From an uncultured Prochlorococcus sp. (GTDB taxonomy: Bacteria; Cyanobacteriota; Cyanobacteriia; PCC-6307; Cyanobiaceae): a DNA stretch of 35,797 nt. Numbering within the stretch: position 1 is the stretch's first letter; every line of letters begins with the position of its first letter. The stretch spans positions 1 to 35,797 of the forward strand of contig CACJAC010000011.1 in NCBI GenBank assembly GCA_902591275.1, written 5' to 3'. Position numbers and translations under genes: made by a program. Of this stretch, positions 3-5,678 are shown piece after piece. The notes beneath the pieces were generated by a model, which was given only the letters and a program-made list of their open reading frames with translations, was not told the DNA's origin and made no database searches.

Positions 3-578
3 ACCGCTCATAAAATGAAAGTCCAAAGGGGGCCGCTATCTCAGGATTCTGATAGAAATGATAATTACAGAGTAAAGAGATATATTTCTAAAGTTACAAT
101 TAATCCTGCAATAGCTCATGGAATTGACAAACATGTTGGATCTATAGAAAAGGGTAAAATTGCGGATTTAGCACTATGGAAACCTTCCTTTTTTGCGGTA
201 AAGCCTGAATTAGTTGTTAAAGGAGGATCTATAGTTTGGTCCCAAATGGGTGATGCAAATGCTTCAATTCCTACTCCAGGGCCTGTATATGGTCGACCTA
301 TGTTTGCAAGTTTCGGCCAATCTCTAATTAACAGTTCTTTTACCTTTTTAAGTAAAAATTCAATTGATCAAAATATTCCAAATAAATTAGGCCTACAAAA
401 GAAATGTATTTCAGTAGAAAATACCAGAAATATTAATAAATCACACCTAAAACTTAATAGTAAACTACCAAATATTTCAGTTGATCCTCAAACTTATGAA
501 GTTTTTTCTGATGGAGAACTTCTTACTTGTGAACCACTTGATGAAGTTCCAATGGCTCAAAGGTACTTTTTACTTTAG
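3..578 (+). CDS. ureC: Urease subunit alpha, C-terminal part (5' truncated by window edge)
   Basis: This is the C-terminal third of the nickel urease catalytic subunit, which hydrolyses urea to ammonia and carbamate in the cytoplasm. The open frame runs to the window edge. The codons before the first internal ATG read TAHK, continuing into MKVQRG, as in urease alpha. Diagnostic features are [20 protein letters not shown] (the typical end of the amidohydrolase barrel), the [20 protein letters not shown] stretch and a C-terminal PMAQRYFLL ending. The metal-ligand histidines and carbamylated lysine would lie upstream, outside the window. Its stop codon overlaps the stop of the convergent gpgS gene. 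Urea is an important nitrogen source for marine picocyanobacteria, which is family knowledge and not visible here. Confidence 0.96.
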
Positions 579-1801
579 AAGTTTTTAATTAATTCTTTTT
601 CATTTATCTTTATATCTTGTGACCCAGCAATTGCCAAATCTTCTTGCAGTTTGTTCTCACAAGATAAAACTCTTGACCAACTTGGTAACTGTTGTGTCGT
701 AGGGAAAGCTAAGTAATCTTCTGTAGCCGGTCTCAATAGTTTCGCAAATTTTTGTACTGATAGCTCTTCTTCATGCCTATCGTATGGAAGTTGATTTACT
801 GCTGAATCTAATCCAAATTGTTTTACCCGATCTTCCCCAACTCTTTTGTAAAGAACTTCTAAGGTTGCTAGTTGAGTACTTGTTAAGGTCTCTGCTTGAT
901 GCTCCATGAGTCCTCTTAAAACACTTGAAAGTATTTCTGTACACATTTTCTGCAATCCTTCTTTGGATGAATCACCAATATTCTTATGTTTATGATCGAA
1001 CAATCCCAGGTCAACTTGGGCTATTTTGGAGGTCCTCACGTTTCTGTAAACCTCTGATAATAAACCTATCTCTAAACCCCAGTCACAAGGAATTCGTAAA
1101 TTCATCGCAAGGTCTTTGGTGAAAGCAAATTCACCTGCTAATGGATATCTAAATGATTGAAGATATTGTAAAAACGGACCCTTTCCTACTAACTGCTCAA
1201 GACTTGCCAATAAGGGACCGACAAATAATCTTGTTGCTCTACCTTGTAATTGATTGGTCTCTAGGGATAACCTGCTGTAAAAAGCCTTTACGTATGATAT
1301 CCCATATGATTCATCCAGTAGGGGAAGTATCATTCTTGAAGGATACAAAGGACTAAAAGTTCTTATATCAGCATCAAAAAGAGCAACAACTTCTGATTTC
1401 CTGGTTGCAACTCCTATGCCTTGCCAGACAGCCCATCCTTTCCCGGGAGTTCCTAAAAGTTCTAACCCATTTTTTTCTTGGCTTTTTAATAGTGCTATTA
1501 CAGAGGGAGAATTAGTCCATTGAACGTGAACTGGAAATGGCATTGAGTCAAAAAATGATTTTGCTGCTTTAACTTGATCAACAGTTTTAGCAGAGAGAGC
1601 AATAACTAATTCATTTAAGCTTGTAAGGCCTTTTAAGACTTCTCTTATGTCTTTTAATGCTGGACGCTCAAACTCTTCATATAAGCAAGGTATTAAAATG
1701 CTAGTTGACCTTTTTTTAAGACTTTTGTTTAATTCTTTAAGTAAATTTCTTGTGACTCCATATTCATGTATTGTTGTGATTAACCCTTGTTGAAAGTCCA
1801 T
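575..1801 (-). CDS. gpgS: Glucosyl-3-phosphoglycerate synthase (GT81-type glycosyltransferase)
   Basis: Predicted to transfer glucose from NDP-glucose to 3-phosphoglycerate, giving glucosyl-3-phosphoglycerate, the first step of glucosylglycerate synthesis. The 408-aa protein has a GT-A nucleotide-sugar fold. An [15 protein letters not shown] segment lies near residues 35-50, and a metal-binding DAD sits at residues 143-145 in the context [12 protein letters not shown]. Length and motifs fit the GpgS/MpgS-like family of cyanobacteria. The ATG start is at 1799-1801. It diverges from the GH13 gene across about 50 bp and shares a neighbourhood with a matching phosphatase, which supports the substrate call. 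A mannosyl- or other glycosyl-3-phosphoglycerate synthase is the main alternative. The strength of the call comes from motif plus context. Confidence 0.87.
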
Positions 1802-1851
1802 TTTCTAATTGATGTGCAGAATAGTATTAATACTTCGTTGATTTTTTCAAA

Positions 1852-3612
1852 GTGAAGCAAATTGATTCAGAGAAAAAATTAGATAGATTAAAAATTGATA
1901 AATTGTTAAAAACAATTTATTCAAATAATACTACAGAAGAAATTAATTTTATTTCAAACCAATTATTACAGATTTTAAATGATTTCTCAGAGAAATCTGC
2001 TTTTGAAGAAATAAGAGATGAGGAAAGGTGGAATGAATCTCATTCAGTTTTGATAACTTATGCAGATAGTATTTATAAAAATGGCGAGTCAACATTAATA
2101 ACTCTGAATGAGTTGTTAAGTAAACATTTTGGCAGTCTTTCAAAAGTTGTACATATTCTTCCTTTTTTGAAATCTACAAGTGATGGAGGTTTTGCAGTCT
2201 CAAGTTATGATTCCTTAGAAGAAAAATTTGGTGGTTGGGATGATCTCAAAAGTATTTCTAAAAATCATGATTTGATGGCTGATTTAGTACTAAACCATGT
2301 CTCCTCATCTCACCCATGGGTTCAACAATTTATTAAAACCCAAGAACCGGGCATATCAAATGTTTTTTCACCTAAACAAAATCTTGACTGGTCAAACGTT
2401 GTCAGGCCAAGAAGTTCCTCCTTGTTTTCTCAAATAAATACAGAAGATGGCCCTAAACAAGTTTGGACAACTTTTGGTCCAGATCAAATTGATTTGAATT
2501 GGCATAATCCGAAAATGACACGTGAGTTTTTAAATTTAATTATTACTTATTTATCTAATGGAATTAAATGGTTCAGGCTTGATGCTGTAGGTTTCATTTG
2601 GAAGGAATCAGGGACAACTTGCTTGCATTTACCAAAAGCACATTCGATTGTGAAACTCTTAAGAGTTCTTTTAAATAATCTTCTTGATGCGGGAGTTTTA
2701 ATAACTGAAACTAATGTTCCTCAGAAAGAAAATCTATCTTATCTAATTCCTGATGATGAAGCCCATATGGCATACAATTTCCCATTGCCACCCCTACTCC
2801 TGGAAGCAATTATTACTTCAAGAGCGGATATTCTAAACTCATGGATTTTTGATTGGCCAGAATTGCCTGATAATACTACTCTTTTTAATTTCACTGCATC
2901 GCACGATGGTGTTGGGCTAAGAGCCCTTGAGGGATTAATGAACGAGCAGAGAATAAAAGATTTATTAATTAATTGCGAAAAAAGAGGCGGATTAGTAAGT
3001 CATAGACGTTTATCAAATGGTGATGACAAACCTTATGAATTGAATATTAGTTGGTGGAGTGCAATGGAAGACTCCAGTAGAGATGCTAAAAGATTTCAAT
3101 ATGAGAGATTTATTTTGAGTCAATTATTAGTAATGGCTCTCAAAGGGGTTCCTGCCTTTTATTTGCCAGCATTACTTGCGTCAGAAAATGATATTAAAAG
3201 TTTTTCTATGACAGGTCAAAGAAGAGATCTCAATAGAGAAAAGTTTAAATTAGACAATCTTTTACCTGCTTTAAATAATCCTGAATCTAATGCCAATAAA
3301 AACTTAAAATATCTTCGTAATGCTATGGATGTCAGATCAGAATTAAAGCAATTTCACCCTTGTTCAGAAATGAAATGTTTGTCTAATGGTAGAAGTGATA
3401 TTGTTGTAATCAAAAGAAGTAAAGGTCTTGAAGCAGTTTTTGCAATTCATAATATGACTGAAAATAAAATTAATTATCAACTGAATGATAATGATCTCCC
3501 AAAAATAATTGATAATGATTTCAATACCCAAGATTTTTTAACATCTACTAAATACAATTGGAAAAATATTAGTCTTGACCCTTTTCAAGTTATTTGGCTT
3601 AGTGCTTTATAA
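1852..3612 (+). CDS. GH13 sucrose/glucosylglycerate phosphorylase-type enzyme
   Basis: A 586-aa alpha-amylase superfamily protein of the sucrose-phosphorylase type (GH13_18). Such enzymes split an alpha-glucoside with phosphate to give glucose-1-phosphate. Catalytic residues are readable: nucleophile D244 in RLDAVGF, acid/base E286 in ITETNVP, and transition-state stabiliser D352 in ASHDGVG. An early barrel segment ADLVLNHVSSSHPW also matches. The start is GTG at 1852; no in-frame ATG fits better. It lies between divergent gpgS and a GpgP-like phosphatase 2 nt downstream, so glucosylglycerate is a more likely substrate than sucrose. GH13_18 is known to contain glucosylglycerate phosphorylases. 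Annotation pipelines will usually call it sucrose phosphorylase; sequence alone does not settle specificity. Confidence 0.85.
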   Translation: MKQIDSEKKLDRLKIDKLLKTIYSNNTTEEINFISNQLLQILNDFSEKSAFEEIRDEERWNESHSVLITYADSIYKNGESTLITLNELLSKHFGSLSKVVHILPFLKSTSDGGFAVSSYDSLEEKFGGWDDLKSISKNHDLMADLVLNHVSSSHPWVQQFIKTQEPGISNVFSPKQNLDWSNVVRPRSSSLFSQINTEDGPKQVWTTFGPDQIDLNWHNPKMTREFLNLIITYLSNGIKWFRLDAVGFIWKESGTTCLHLPKAHSIVKLLRVLLNNLLDAGVLITETNVPQKENLSYLIPDDEAHMAYNFPLPPLLLEAIITSRADILNSWIFDWPELPDNTTLFNFTASHDGVGLRALEGLMNEQRIKDLLINCEKRGGLVSHRRLSNGDDKPYELNISWWSAMEDSSRDAKRFQYERFILSQLLVMALKGVPAFYLPALLASENDIKSFSMTGQRRDLNREKFKLDNLLPALNNPESNANKNLKYLRNAMDVRSELKQFHPCSEMKCLSNGRSDIVVIKRSKGLEAVFAIHNMTENKINYQLNDNDLPKIIDNDFNTQDFLTSTKYNWKNISLDPFQVIWLSAL

Positions 3613-3614
3613 AA

Positions 3615-4412
3615 ATGATAGAAAATTCTTCTATTTGGGTAGTGAGTGATGTAGATGGTACCTTAATGGATCACTCTTATGATTTAACACCCGCTAAAGA
3701 AACTATAAAAACACTGCAAAAATTATCTATACCCGTAATTCTTTGTACAAGCAAAACGGCATCAGAAGTGAGAGTAATTAGGAAAGAGCTGAATTTAAAG
3801 GATCCCTATATTGTTGAAAATGGTGCGGCAATATATGGCGAATCTCTTAAAAGAGTTAATGGAGAAATTATTCTTGGAATAAAGTACGAATTTCTTGAAG
3901 AAATCTTAAATTTTATTTCTAAAGAAATTGATTACAAACTTACGCCTCTAAATAATCTTACTGATCAAGAAGCTACTCAGCTCACAGGTTTAGAAGGTAA
4001 CTCTTTGAACTTAATGCGCGATAGACACTGGAGCATGCCTTTTTTAAATCCGCCAAGTTATTTAGAAGAGAAAATTAATATCTGTTGTAAAAAATTTAAT
4101 GTTGATATTTTTAAGGGAAATAGAATGAGTCACTTATTATCTACAAAATCAAATAAAGGTAAAGCAATAAATGCTCTTAAAGAATATTCAAATAGTCAAA
4201 ATATTGAAATTGTAGGTTTGGGAGATTCTCCAAATGATTTACCTCTACTTTTAAGCTCAAATATAAAAATTGTTATTCCTGGAATAGATGGACCTAATTT
4301 AAACTTAATAGATCAATTAAAAGATTTGGAATATATTTTAGCTTCTGAACCAAATGGATATGGTTGGAAAAATGAAATCAACAAATTTATAAATAAGCGA
4401 GAACTAAGTTAG
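3615..4412 (+). CDS. gpgP: Glucosyl-3-phosphoglycerate phosphatase (HAD, MpgP/GpgP type)
   Basis: A 265-aa HAD-IIB phosphatase of the mannosyl-3-phosphoglycerate phosphatase family. It is predicted to remove the phosphate from glucosyl-3-phosphoglycerate, yielding glucosylglycerate. HAD motif I is VVSDVDGTLMD (catalytic aspartates 12 and 14). The motif II region is PVILCTSKTASEV. A conserved lysine occurs in TKSNKGKAI, and motif IV is GLGDSPNDLPLL. The VENGAAIYG segment is typical of this phosphatase group. It begins 2 nt after the GH13 stop and ends 4 nt before the kinase gene, so the three are almost certainly cotranscribed. A generic Cof-type sugar phosphatase is possible, but family features and a neighbouring gpgS favour this role. 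Confidence 0.87.
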   Translation: MIENSSIWVVSDVDGTLMDHSYDLTPAKETIKTLQKLSIPVILCTSKTASEVRVIRKELNLKDPYIVENGAAIYGESLKRVNGEIILGIKYEFLEEILNFISKEIDYKLTPLNNLTDQEATQLTGLEGNSLNLMRDRHWSMPFLNPPSYLEEKINICCKKFNVDIFKGNRMSHLLSTKSNKGKAINALKEYSNSQNIEIVGLGDSPNDLPLLLSSNIKIVIPGIDGPNLNLIDQLKDLEYILASEPNGYGWKNEINKFINKRELS

Positions 4413-4416
4413 AAAT

Positions 4417-5361
4417 ATGAAAGATTTAGATATAAATTTTCCTCTTGATAAATTCGAAAAATTAATTATTGACATAGGTTGGGAATCTTTGGATGATTGG
4501 TTCAATTTTTGGAATAATCAAGGAAACATTCTTTCAATTGATCAATATTGTAACAACAAAGTAAATGATGATTGGATTTGGGGTTTAGCTTTACCTCTTC
4601 TATCTCAAGCTTATAAATTTCAAAATAATTTTCCTAATAGAAAAATAATTGGGATTTCAGCTCTACCTGGTACAGGGAAAACAACACTAGGTAAATGGCT
4701 AGAAGCTATATCGTTAAAATTAAACTTCAAAATTGCGGTTATTTCAATTGACGACTTTTATCTCCCATCAGATGAAATGGAATTAGCAATTAAGAATAAC
4801 CCTTGGAATGTTTCAAGAGGGTTTCCTGGTAGTCACTCAGTAAAATTAATGCATGAAAAATTATTAAATTGGAAGATAAATGGAGAATTAAATGTACCAG
4901 TTTTCGATAAATCTTTAAGAAATGGTTTAGGAGATAGATCTCATTGGAGATTGGATAATCCTGACTTATTAATTCTTGAGGGTTGGTTTTTGGGAATAAG
5001 ACCTTACTCTATGGACATAAATGATCAATCTATAAATACAACAAATTTGAGTGTTGATGAATCTTCTTATATATTAAATATTCAAAACAACCTAAAGGAA
5101 TATTTAGATATTTGGACTTTAATAGACAATATTTGGCACTTAAAGCCCTTGAAAATCGAATACATGAATAAGTGGAAAACAAATCAAGAAAAAGAGATGT
5201 TTTTACAGAAAGGAAATGCCCTGAAAAATAAAAATTTATCTAATTTCTTAAGAATGCTTAATGTCTCTATCCCTAATGAAAGTTTTAATTTTATTAATTC
5301 TTATGCGCTTTTATTAATTGATCAAGAAAGAAATTTAGTTGAGGCTGGATTGAATTTGTAG
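4417..5361 (+). CDS. D-glycerate 3-kinase-like P-loop kinase
   Basis: A 314-aa kinase with a Walker A motif ALPGTGKTT (GTGKTT at residues 85-90) and an ISIDDFYLP segment near residues 109-117, as in plant-type glycerate kinases (GLYK) and related phosphoribulokinase/uridine kinase-fold enzymes. Predicted reaction: D-glycerate plus ATP to 3-phosphoglycerate. It is the last gene of the plus-strand trio, 4 nt after gpgP. In this setting it would recapture glycerate released by glucosylglycerate phosphorolysis; it could equally serve photorespiratory glycerate from the rest of the cell, since cyanobacterial GLYK is the usual photorespiratory enzyme. Other P-loop kinases share the motif, so substrate is inferred from family resemblance and context. 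Confidence 0.8.
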   Translation: MKDLDINFPLDKFEKLIIDIGWESLDDWFNFWNNQGNILSIDQYCNNKVNDDWIWGLALPLLSQAYKFQNNFPNRKIIGISALPGTGKTTLGKWLEAISLKLNFKIAVISIDDFYLPSDEMELAIKNNPWNVSRGFPGSHSVKLMHEKLLNWKINGELNVPVFDKSLRNGLGDRSHWRLDNPDLLILEGWFLGIRPYSMDINDQSINTTNLSVDESSYILNIQNNLKEYLDIWTLIDNIWHLKPLKIEYMNKWKTNQEKEMFLQKGNALKNKNLSNFLRMLNVSIPNESFNFINSYALLLIDQERNLVEAGLNL

Positions 5362-5450: not shown

Positions 5451-5678
5451 ATGGTTGAGTTTTCTTACAAAAATGAAGGCTGTAGGATGGTTGTTTTGAG
5501 ATGTATTGGACCATCAAATTTTTTCTTAGAGAGAGTTTTGTTCCCAACTGATATTCTTACTTTTATGGCCCCAAATGATTCAAGAGTTGAAATCTGGGGA
5601 AATGAATTATATGGCCCCAAGTTAGAAGAGAGAATAAGAATTTCTGCTGATAACGAAGATTCACCTTTAGTTGCTTAG
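5451..5678 (+). CDS. DUF1830 family small protein
   Basis: A 75-aa soluble-looking protein matching the cyanobacterial DUF1830 pattern. It has a Cys-containing beta strand (VVLRCIG), an FFLERVLFPTDILTFMAP core with the family's FERVxFPG-like motif, and a VEIWGNE strand, followed by a short acidic tail. No transmembrane segment or signal peptide is seen. The ATG at 5451 follows a purine-rich TTAGGG; the first 90 bp upstream are extremely AT-rich with runs of T. It stands alone after the glycerate kinase gene, about 90 bp away, so it is probably separately expressed. No function is established for the family, and I infer none. Confidence 0.8.
   Translation: MVEFSYKNEGCRMVVLRCIGPSNFFLERVLFPTDILTFMAPNDSRVEIWGNELYGPKLEERIRISADNEDSPLVA

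Follow-up and report, generated by a model that had tools for sequence, protein, structure and literature searches.

Genes for the metabolism of glucosylglycerate (GGA) have been described in several picocyanobacteria. In 2010, SYNW2435 of Synechococcus WH8102 was added to the glucosylglycerate gene set as sharing an operon with gpgP (PMC2874817). By its number, SYNW2435 lies between gpgP (2434) and gpgS (2436), from which we infer that it encodes a glucosylglycerate phosphorylase (GGaP). GGaP genes are frequently accompanied by genes for a glycerate kinase, gpgS, or gpgP (PMC7178133). Furthermore, Coe et al. 2024 (PMC11631117), who cite Franceus 2017, have reported a "glucosylglycerate metabolism operon" for Prochlorococcus NATL2A in which GGA is recycled to glucose-1-phosphate and 3-phosphoglycerate. 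Here, we analyzed a locus of this kind in a 35,797-nt stretch of DNA from an uncultured Prochlorococcus sp. (contig CACJAC010000011.1, entire; hereafter, the window). Its genes gpgS, GGaP, gpgP, and GLYK, the last for a glycerate kinase, very probably (about 0.87) encode the turnover of the compatible solute GGA, as judged from sequence. Few phototrophs are as abundant as Prochlorococcus, whose osmolytes store carbon and may also serve in exchange.

The gene at positions 1852–3612 (plus strand) is a complete open reading frame (ORF) with a GTG start and encodes a GH13_18 protein of 586 residues, whose assignment as a putative GGaP is supported by its signature residues and context. Its best matches among solved structures are phosphorylases for glucosylglycerol and sucrose (E 3e-41 and 2e-40). 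Two marks of GGaP have been described, namely (T/S)ETN around the acid/base Glu and a Glu replacing Gln in loop A (PMC7178133, PMC6720575). The window protein carries both, as T285-E286-T287-N288 and P394-Y395-E396, and its loop A reads DDKPYEL, not the N(L/V)D(I/L/V)YQ of sucrose phosphorylase. The catalytic residues D244, E286, and D352, named in a preliminary description of this DNA, are indeed invariant in alignments with YcjM of E. coli, a characterized GGaP that bears the RefSeq name glucosylglycerate phosphorylase and is 32% identical to the window protein. TETN and PYE were also invariant over nine cyanobacterial proteins and YcjM. In an alignment of 18 proteins, the loop A column was Glu in 15/15 TETN proteins (the window protein, 11 cyanobacterial relatives, YcjM, and those of Meiothermus and Pseudoalteromonas) and Gln in 3/3 gtfA-type proteins (Rhizobium, Agathobacter, and Lactococcus), the latter having VEIH or PEIH in place of TETN; the solved structures 7qqj and 7xdq have PEIH/PEVH and IYQ at the corresponding places. 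Both marks were found in all 80 named Prochlorococcus loci, which are close relatives and the best 80 of 557 confirmed loci, and in 12/12 other cyanobacterial loci. No assay of a cyanobacterial GGaP was met in the literature searched. Naming this gene for glucosylglycerate rather than sucrose phosphorylase alters the reading of transcript and metagenome data. A separate observation concerns the plasmid gtfA of Agathobacter rectalis (L157), which is annotated as sucrose phosphorylase and has YYQ in loop A, as is characteristic of strict sucrose 6F-phosphate phosphorylases; judged by this motif, the annotation may be wrong for its product. An "AYE" for this protein in a regular-expression motif listing was discarded, as the alignment gives YYQ.

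The divergent gpgS gene (575–1801, minus strand) is a complete ORF of 408 residues. Its product gave a full-length match to NCBIfam NF040724 (GpgS_Meth; E 7e-120, 400.5 bits) and matched solved GpgS structures (E 1e-18); the name rests on this homology, these structures, and the context, by which the protein probably works like a GpgS. The gpgP gene (3615–4412, plus strand; complete ORF, 265 residues) encodes a HAD-IIB glucosyl-3-phosphoglycerate phosphatase that scored 559.6 bits against NF001215 (mannosyl/glucosyl-3-phosphoglycerate phosphatase, HAD-IIB), over the cut-off of 488, and had matches of E 4e-27 and 7e-16 to solved structures of the MpgP family. NF001215 is named for the mannosyl substrate, and the glucosyl specificity of GpgP would follow from the presence of gpgS. 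Pfam-A at E 0.001 gave no match in gpgS or the kinase. The median dN/dS was 0.035 for gpgS, 0.102 for GGaP, 0.095 for gpgP, and, against 79 relatives, 0.140 for the kinase; purifying selection thus acts on each of the four genes. GGaP, gpgP, and the kinase gene follow one another on the plus strand, and because the gaps are just 2 bp (GGaP–gpgP) and 4 bp (gpgP–GLYK), they presumably form one tight operon. The preliminary description had set the four genes in pathway order. All four ORFs are complete and belong to the families it named, but the order was wrong: gpgS lies on the minus strand as the sole divergent gene, followed on the plus strand by GGaP, gpgP, and the kinase gene, such that the phosphatase of synthesis is placed downstream of the phosphorylase. 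Separately, Table 4 of PMC9606707 lists gpgS and gpgP as PMM0962 and PMM0515 in MED4 and as NATL1_09131 and NATL1_05721 in NATL1A. These numbers are far apart, whereas gpgP directly follows GGaP beside gpgS in the named loci, and the gpgP listed there may be another HAD phosphatase.

The distribution of the genes was surveyed in 121 Cyanobiaceae genomes, comprising 120 that were at least 90% complete and the window's own (G000; 1.08 Mb, 57 contigs, 70% complete). A GGaP orthologue, defined by at least 47% identity, was found in 55/121; the remaining matches were GH13 proteins of 26–35% identity and were not counted. Co-occurrence of the four genes, which the preliminary description had proposed as a check, was observed: gpgS was adjoining and divergent to GGaP in 55/55, gpgP was present in 55/55 and adjoining in 54 (the best match in G083 was on a different contig), and the kinase was present in 55/55, although as a weak match in three. 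Among genomes without GGaP, gpgS matches were seen in G055, in G014 (with stops), and in G011 and G042 (35–38%), and a gpgP match in G055. The GGaP gene of G055 (L065) is an internally deleted remnant, with gpgS, gpgP, and the kinase gene remaining. In G014 (L066), GGaP is lost, no more than a fragment of 24 residues is left of gpgP, and gpgS is missing the first third of its length, but the kinase gene is intact. A search of the phylum matched GGaP in 33/244 genomes, with 21 in the family and 12 outside it. The trio of gpgS, GGaP, and gpgP exists beyond Cyanobiaceae too, being together in 3/12 of the latter (L183, L184, and L186); in one more (L181), GGaP and gpgS stand in tandem. The kinase was present in 11/12 of these genomes and adjoined GGaP in none.

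From the gene families, signature residues, co-occurrence, spacing, and purifying selection observed here, we propose the following substrates, flux direction, operon structure, and regulation. GpgS would join the glucose of NDP-glucose to 3-phosphoglycerate, giving a phosphorylated GGA precursor that GpgP would dephosphorylate to GGA. GGaP would then convert GGA and phosphate to glucose-1-phosphate and D-glycerate, and GLYK would return the glycerate to 3-phosphoglycerate. The claim of the preliminary description that synthesis and recycling of glucosylglycerate share one locus is one on which the signature residues, the co-occurrence, and the literature agree. With ADP-glucose as the assumed donor and pyrophosphate hydrolysis counted, a full turn would cost two ATP by stoichiometry. 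Because of this cost, synthesis and recycling would be expected to run at different times. The likely switch, and natural control point, would be gpgS, as it is the sole gene transcribed apart, and gpgP is presumably read together with GGaP. In dark-tolerant NATL2A cells, transcripts for synthesis of the phosphorylated precursor were down and those for recycling were up (PMC11631117), and these opposite changes fit a control point at gpgS.

The last gene of the presumed operon, GLYK (4417–5361, plus strand), is a complete ORF of 314 residues with the P-loop GISALPGTGKTT. It matched the D-glycerate 3-kinase structures PDB 7xpc (E 3e-16) and 6ckg (E 6e-16), in agreement with a class III (plant-type) D-glycerate 3-kinase. 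Its dN/dS reached 0.19 at most, with no in-frame stop in 79 loci. At E 1e-5, 117/121 genomes have the kinase, and 110 do at E 1e-20; two genomes show it in two pieces and the others as one match. Of the 66 genomes without GGaP, 62 have it. In 25/55 GGaP genomes, which all measure 1.6–2.0 Mb with the exception of the partial G000, the kinase gene adjoins GGaP; in 30/55, it is located elsewhere, although linkage is not strictly excludable in three (the contigs of G043 and G064 end just past gpgP, and gpgP of G083 is not beside GGaP). Of the four genomes that lack the kinase, G026 and G069 have a class I kinase (PF02595), the only two of the 121 in which it was found, and G053 and G007 have neither; the class II kinase (PF13660) was found in 0/121. 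Of 14 control genomes, 5 were positive in the class I search and 4 in the class II search. Because the class III kinase is widespread with or without GGaP, often unlinked, and intact where the operon has decayed, it is the general glycerate kinase of Cyanobiaceae and is not pathway-specific. Therefore, of the "self-contained" cycle claimed in the preliminary description, the presence of a kinase gene in the locus stands, but across the family the kinase does not belong to this pathway alone; it maybe does so in the window's genus. Class III kinases occur in most cyanobacteria, with Prochlorococcus marinus and most Synechococcus listed, and their role is described as unclear and possibly photorespiratory (PMC2063504).

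Next, we analyzed glycolate oxidation, which bears on the source of glycerate. A full-length GlcD match (E < 1e-140) was found in 94/121 genomes, at 487–529 bits and so always under the curated cut-off of 567.9; weaker matches (~1e-13 to 1e-22) in the remaining genomes were taken as paralogues. The 27 genomes without full-length GlcD fall in g1 (nine genomes of the window's genus, its own partial genome included), g2, g7, g10, g13, g22, g29, and g32. Of these 27, 17 have a full-length FMN-type glycolate/lactate oxidase match (E near 1e-123), which none of the other 94 has. The two enzymes are complementary over the 121 genomes, with 94 having the first, 17 others the second, and ten neither. 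These ten are the nine g1 genomes, which keep GGaP and a linked kinase, and G013, which keeps the kinase alone; full-length GlcD and the FMN-type oxidase were both missing in 8/8 near-complete congeners of the window. GlcD was missing in 23/25 genomes with a linked kinase (the exceptions being G017 and G046) compared to 0/30 with an unlinked one, a comparison that covers few independent lineages (six linked genera and seven unlinked) and to which no probability is attached. The nearest named matches of the window are single-cell genomes of Prochlorococcus, and its matches include MIT 9302, a high-light strain, on which basis we take the window's genus to be high-light Prochlorococcus. In the independent study PMC9723591, no GOX/LOX is reported in any high-light Prochlorococcus genome examined there, with candidates in the low-light MIT9211 and NATL2A, and MIT9312 is described as having no 2-phosphoglycolate phosphatase and only a glcD2-type paralogue of unclear activity. 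Glucosylglycerate is thus the only glycerate source identified in the window's genus.

A kinase–gpgP fusion was found in Pseudoalteromonas, which is non-photosynthetic. On a plasmid of Pseudoalteromonas shioyasakiensis (NZ_CP077771.1, L154:1877–3619), a 580-residue protein combines a class III kinase (residues 48–293) with gpgP (303–578), each 28% identical to its window counterpart. The fusion gene is followed by a gpgS homologue (37%; 36.8% identity to the window gpgS) and a TETN/PYE phosphorylase (35%). Of nine Pseudoalteromonas plasmid records, six matched the fusion over 80% or more of its length. This arrangement supports a probable tie of the kinase to glucosylglycerate turnover in Pseudoalteromonas. 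The fusion protein is annotated merely as "HAD-IIB family hydrolase".

Could the phosphorylase act otherwise than proposed? As a sucrose phosphorylase, it would consume sucrose, the other solute, and its adjacency to gpgS and gpgP would be incidental. The best-scoring NCBIfam model for the protein is indeed sucrose_gtfA, and NATL2A is described as having sucrose among its major solutes (PMC11631117). Moreover, 110/121 genomes, including the window's own, contain the sucrose synthase family PF00862. However, the score of 168.6 bits falls well under the sucrose_gtfA cut-off of 334.4, the active site has TETN and the loop A Glu and not (P/V)EIH and Gln, and PF00862 is present in 55/55 GGaP genomes yet also in 55/66 without GGaP, while the distribution of gpgS and gpgP closely follows that of GGaP. 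On cut-off, motifs, and phylogenetic profile together, this identity was rejected, and we consider it very unlikely; the argument of the preliminary description, which had preferred glucosylglycerate on context and suggested a comparison of acceptor-site residues, was supported. It is also quite unlikely that the phosphorylase works in the direction of synthesis in the cell, forming GGA from glucose-1-phosphate and glycerate, such that the locus would hold two synthesis routes and no recycling. The GGaP reaction is reversible and has been proposed for in vitro synthesis (PMC11009771), but a glycerate-removing kinase comes next in the same presumed operon, which favors breakdown, and the recycling genes of NATL2A go up as the synthesis genes fall. 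Several points do weigh against turnover of GGA as read here. The kinase is no marker of the pathway, given its frequency in genomes without GGaP, and 7/117 kinase matches were weak, with E > 1e-20, including those in the three GGaP genomes G012, G043, and G064. The GpgS score is below the NF040724 cut-off of 700 and thus does not confer membership by the cut-off rule, and one of 77 aligned gpgS copies has an in-frame stop. Outside Cyanobiaceae, 8/12 GGaP loci had no gpgS or gpgP in the stretch read (that of L185 starts 0.6 kb from a contig end), and therefore GGaP can occur apart from the synthesis genes. In a GH13 tree with long branches and a midpoint root, the cyanobacterial clade (100/99) and the sucrose phosphorylase clade (100/100) were separate, but the TETN enzymes did not form one clade, with YcjM, Meiothermus, and Pseudoalteromonas outside the cyanobacterial one. 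Because these enzymes were not united and several branches were long, we base the GGaP assignment on motifs and context rather than on the tree. Finally, a synthesis phosphatase on the presumed transcript of the degradation enzymes fits poorly with a clean on/off switch between the two arms.

The kinase may be weighed in the same way. It may simply serve photorespiration, converting glycolate via glycerate to 3-phosphoglycerate, with its place in the operon being incidental. This is a serious though somewhat doubtful possibility, which agrees with the presence of the kinase in nearly all genomes without GGaP, its intactness beside the decayed pathway in G014 and G055, the class I kinase found instead in two of the four kinase-less genomes, and its location away from GGaP in more than half of the GGaP genomes. 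However, full-length GlcD and the FMN-type oxidase are missing in the window's genus, where the kinase is still conserved and linked; the reported lack of GOX/LOX in high-light Prochlorococcus and of the phosphatase in MIT9312 points the same way, and the kinase is fused to gpgP in Pseudoalteromonas. We therefore put forward, tentatively and at somewhat less than even confidence, that in high-light Prochlorococcus a former photorespiratory kinase was captured into the operon and glycolate oxidation was then lost, such that osmolyte breakdown would be the main source of glycerate. The order of events would be capture of the kinase, replacement of GlcD by the FMN-type oxidase in related genera, and absence of both in the window's genus; capture is placed before oxidase loss because the linked-kinase genomes G017 and G046 still have full-length GlcD. 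Against such a repurposed kinase, G013 keeps the kinase without GGaP, GlcD, or the FMN-type oxidase, the glcD2 paralogue might oxidize glycolate, and hydroxypyruvate from serine is a possible alternative source of glycerate. Repurposing of the kinase was not met in the literature searched, which did not extend to subscription papers and the supplement of PMC11631117. The origin of glycerate in cells apparently unable to oxidize glycolate is a testable question.

The divergent intergenic region between gpgS and GGaP (1802–1851) is 50 bp long in the named loci, and presumably holds or overlaps both divergent promoters. It had the same length and was strongly conserved, in 28 variants, in 87/89 extracts; the other two, presumably L005 and L010 (minus-strand matches), were not intergenic sequence and were dropped. 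None of the 87 usable extracts contained GTA-N8-TAC, which we take as an NtcA-like motif. The window gap has a palindrome, GTATTAATAC, that was present in 61/87 and broken in 26/87, and no claim is made for it as an element. A promoter scan was uninformative, with 28 matches compared to a shuffled mean of 21.1 (sd 6.2). The core GATGTGCAGAAT is kept in nearly all copies, and its CAGAAT is found again in the corresponding gaps of L054, L056, L058, L059, and L061; this core is a possible candidate for a shared control site.

Upstream, the window starts with an ORF at 15–578 (plus strand), which we take to be the C-terminal part of ureC, judged by its likeness to UreC and an earlier label. As the preliminary description stated, urease is the neighbor of the system: ureC and gpgS are convergent, with overlapping stops at 576–578 and 575–577. 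All five genes, ureC included, were full length and in the same arrangement in 70/80 named loci, far beyond chance; the other ten comprised five cut by contig ends and five (L134, L136, L140, L149, and L150) with full gpgS and no adjoining ureC. Urease was thus rejected as a component of the system. Downstream of the kinase, a 75-aa ORF lies at 5451–5678, and an ORF of equal length follows the kinase in L053–L058, as compared by length and place. The window ORF may resemble DUF1830.

Compared with described systems, the GH13_18 protein of the window shares with GGaP, EC 2.4.1.352 (Franceus et al. 2017, as summarized in PMC7178133), the signature residues and a neighborhood of gpgS, gpgP, and glycerate kinase. 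Its kinase is of the same family as the plant-type D-glycerate 3-kinase, which is photorespiratory in plants (PMC2063504). In contrast to the plant enzyme, the kinase is here linked to GGaP in just under half of the GGaP genomes, and the usual glycolate-oxidizing enzymes were not found in the window's genus. The NATL2A operon (PMC11631117) likewise holds GGA synthesis and recycling genes together, with glycerate and 3-phosphoglycerate in its scheme. However, a putative transporter adjoins that operon, whereas ureC adjoins the window locus, at which no transporter gene was seen between ureC and uppP. A TauE/SafE-family permease stands beside gpgS in the relatives L062 (6499–7272) and L059 (12493–13269) and may be a candidate for the NATL2A transporter. 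The synthesis–recycling gene set is already known for relatives; within the literature searched, the present analysis adds how the kinase stands to the pathway and the kinase–gpgP fusion.

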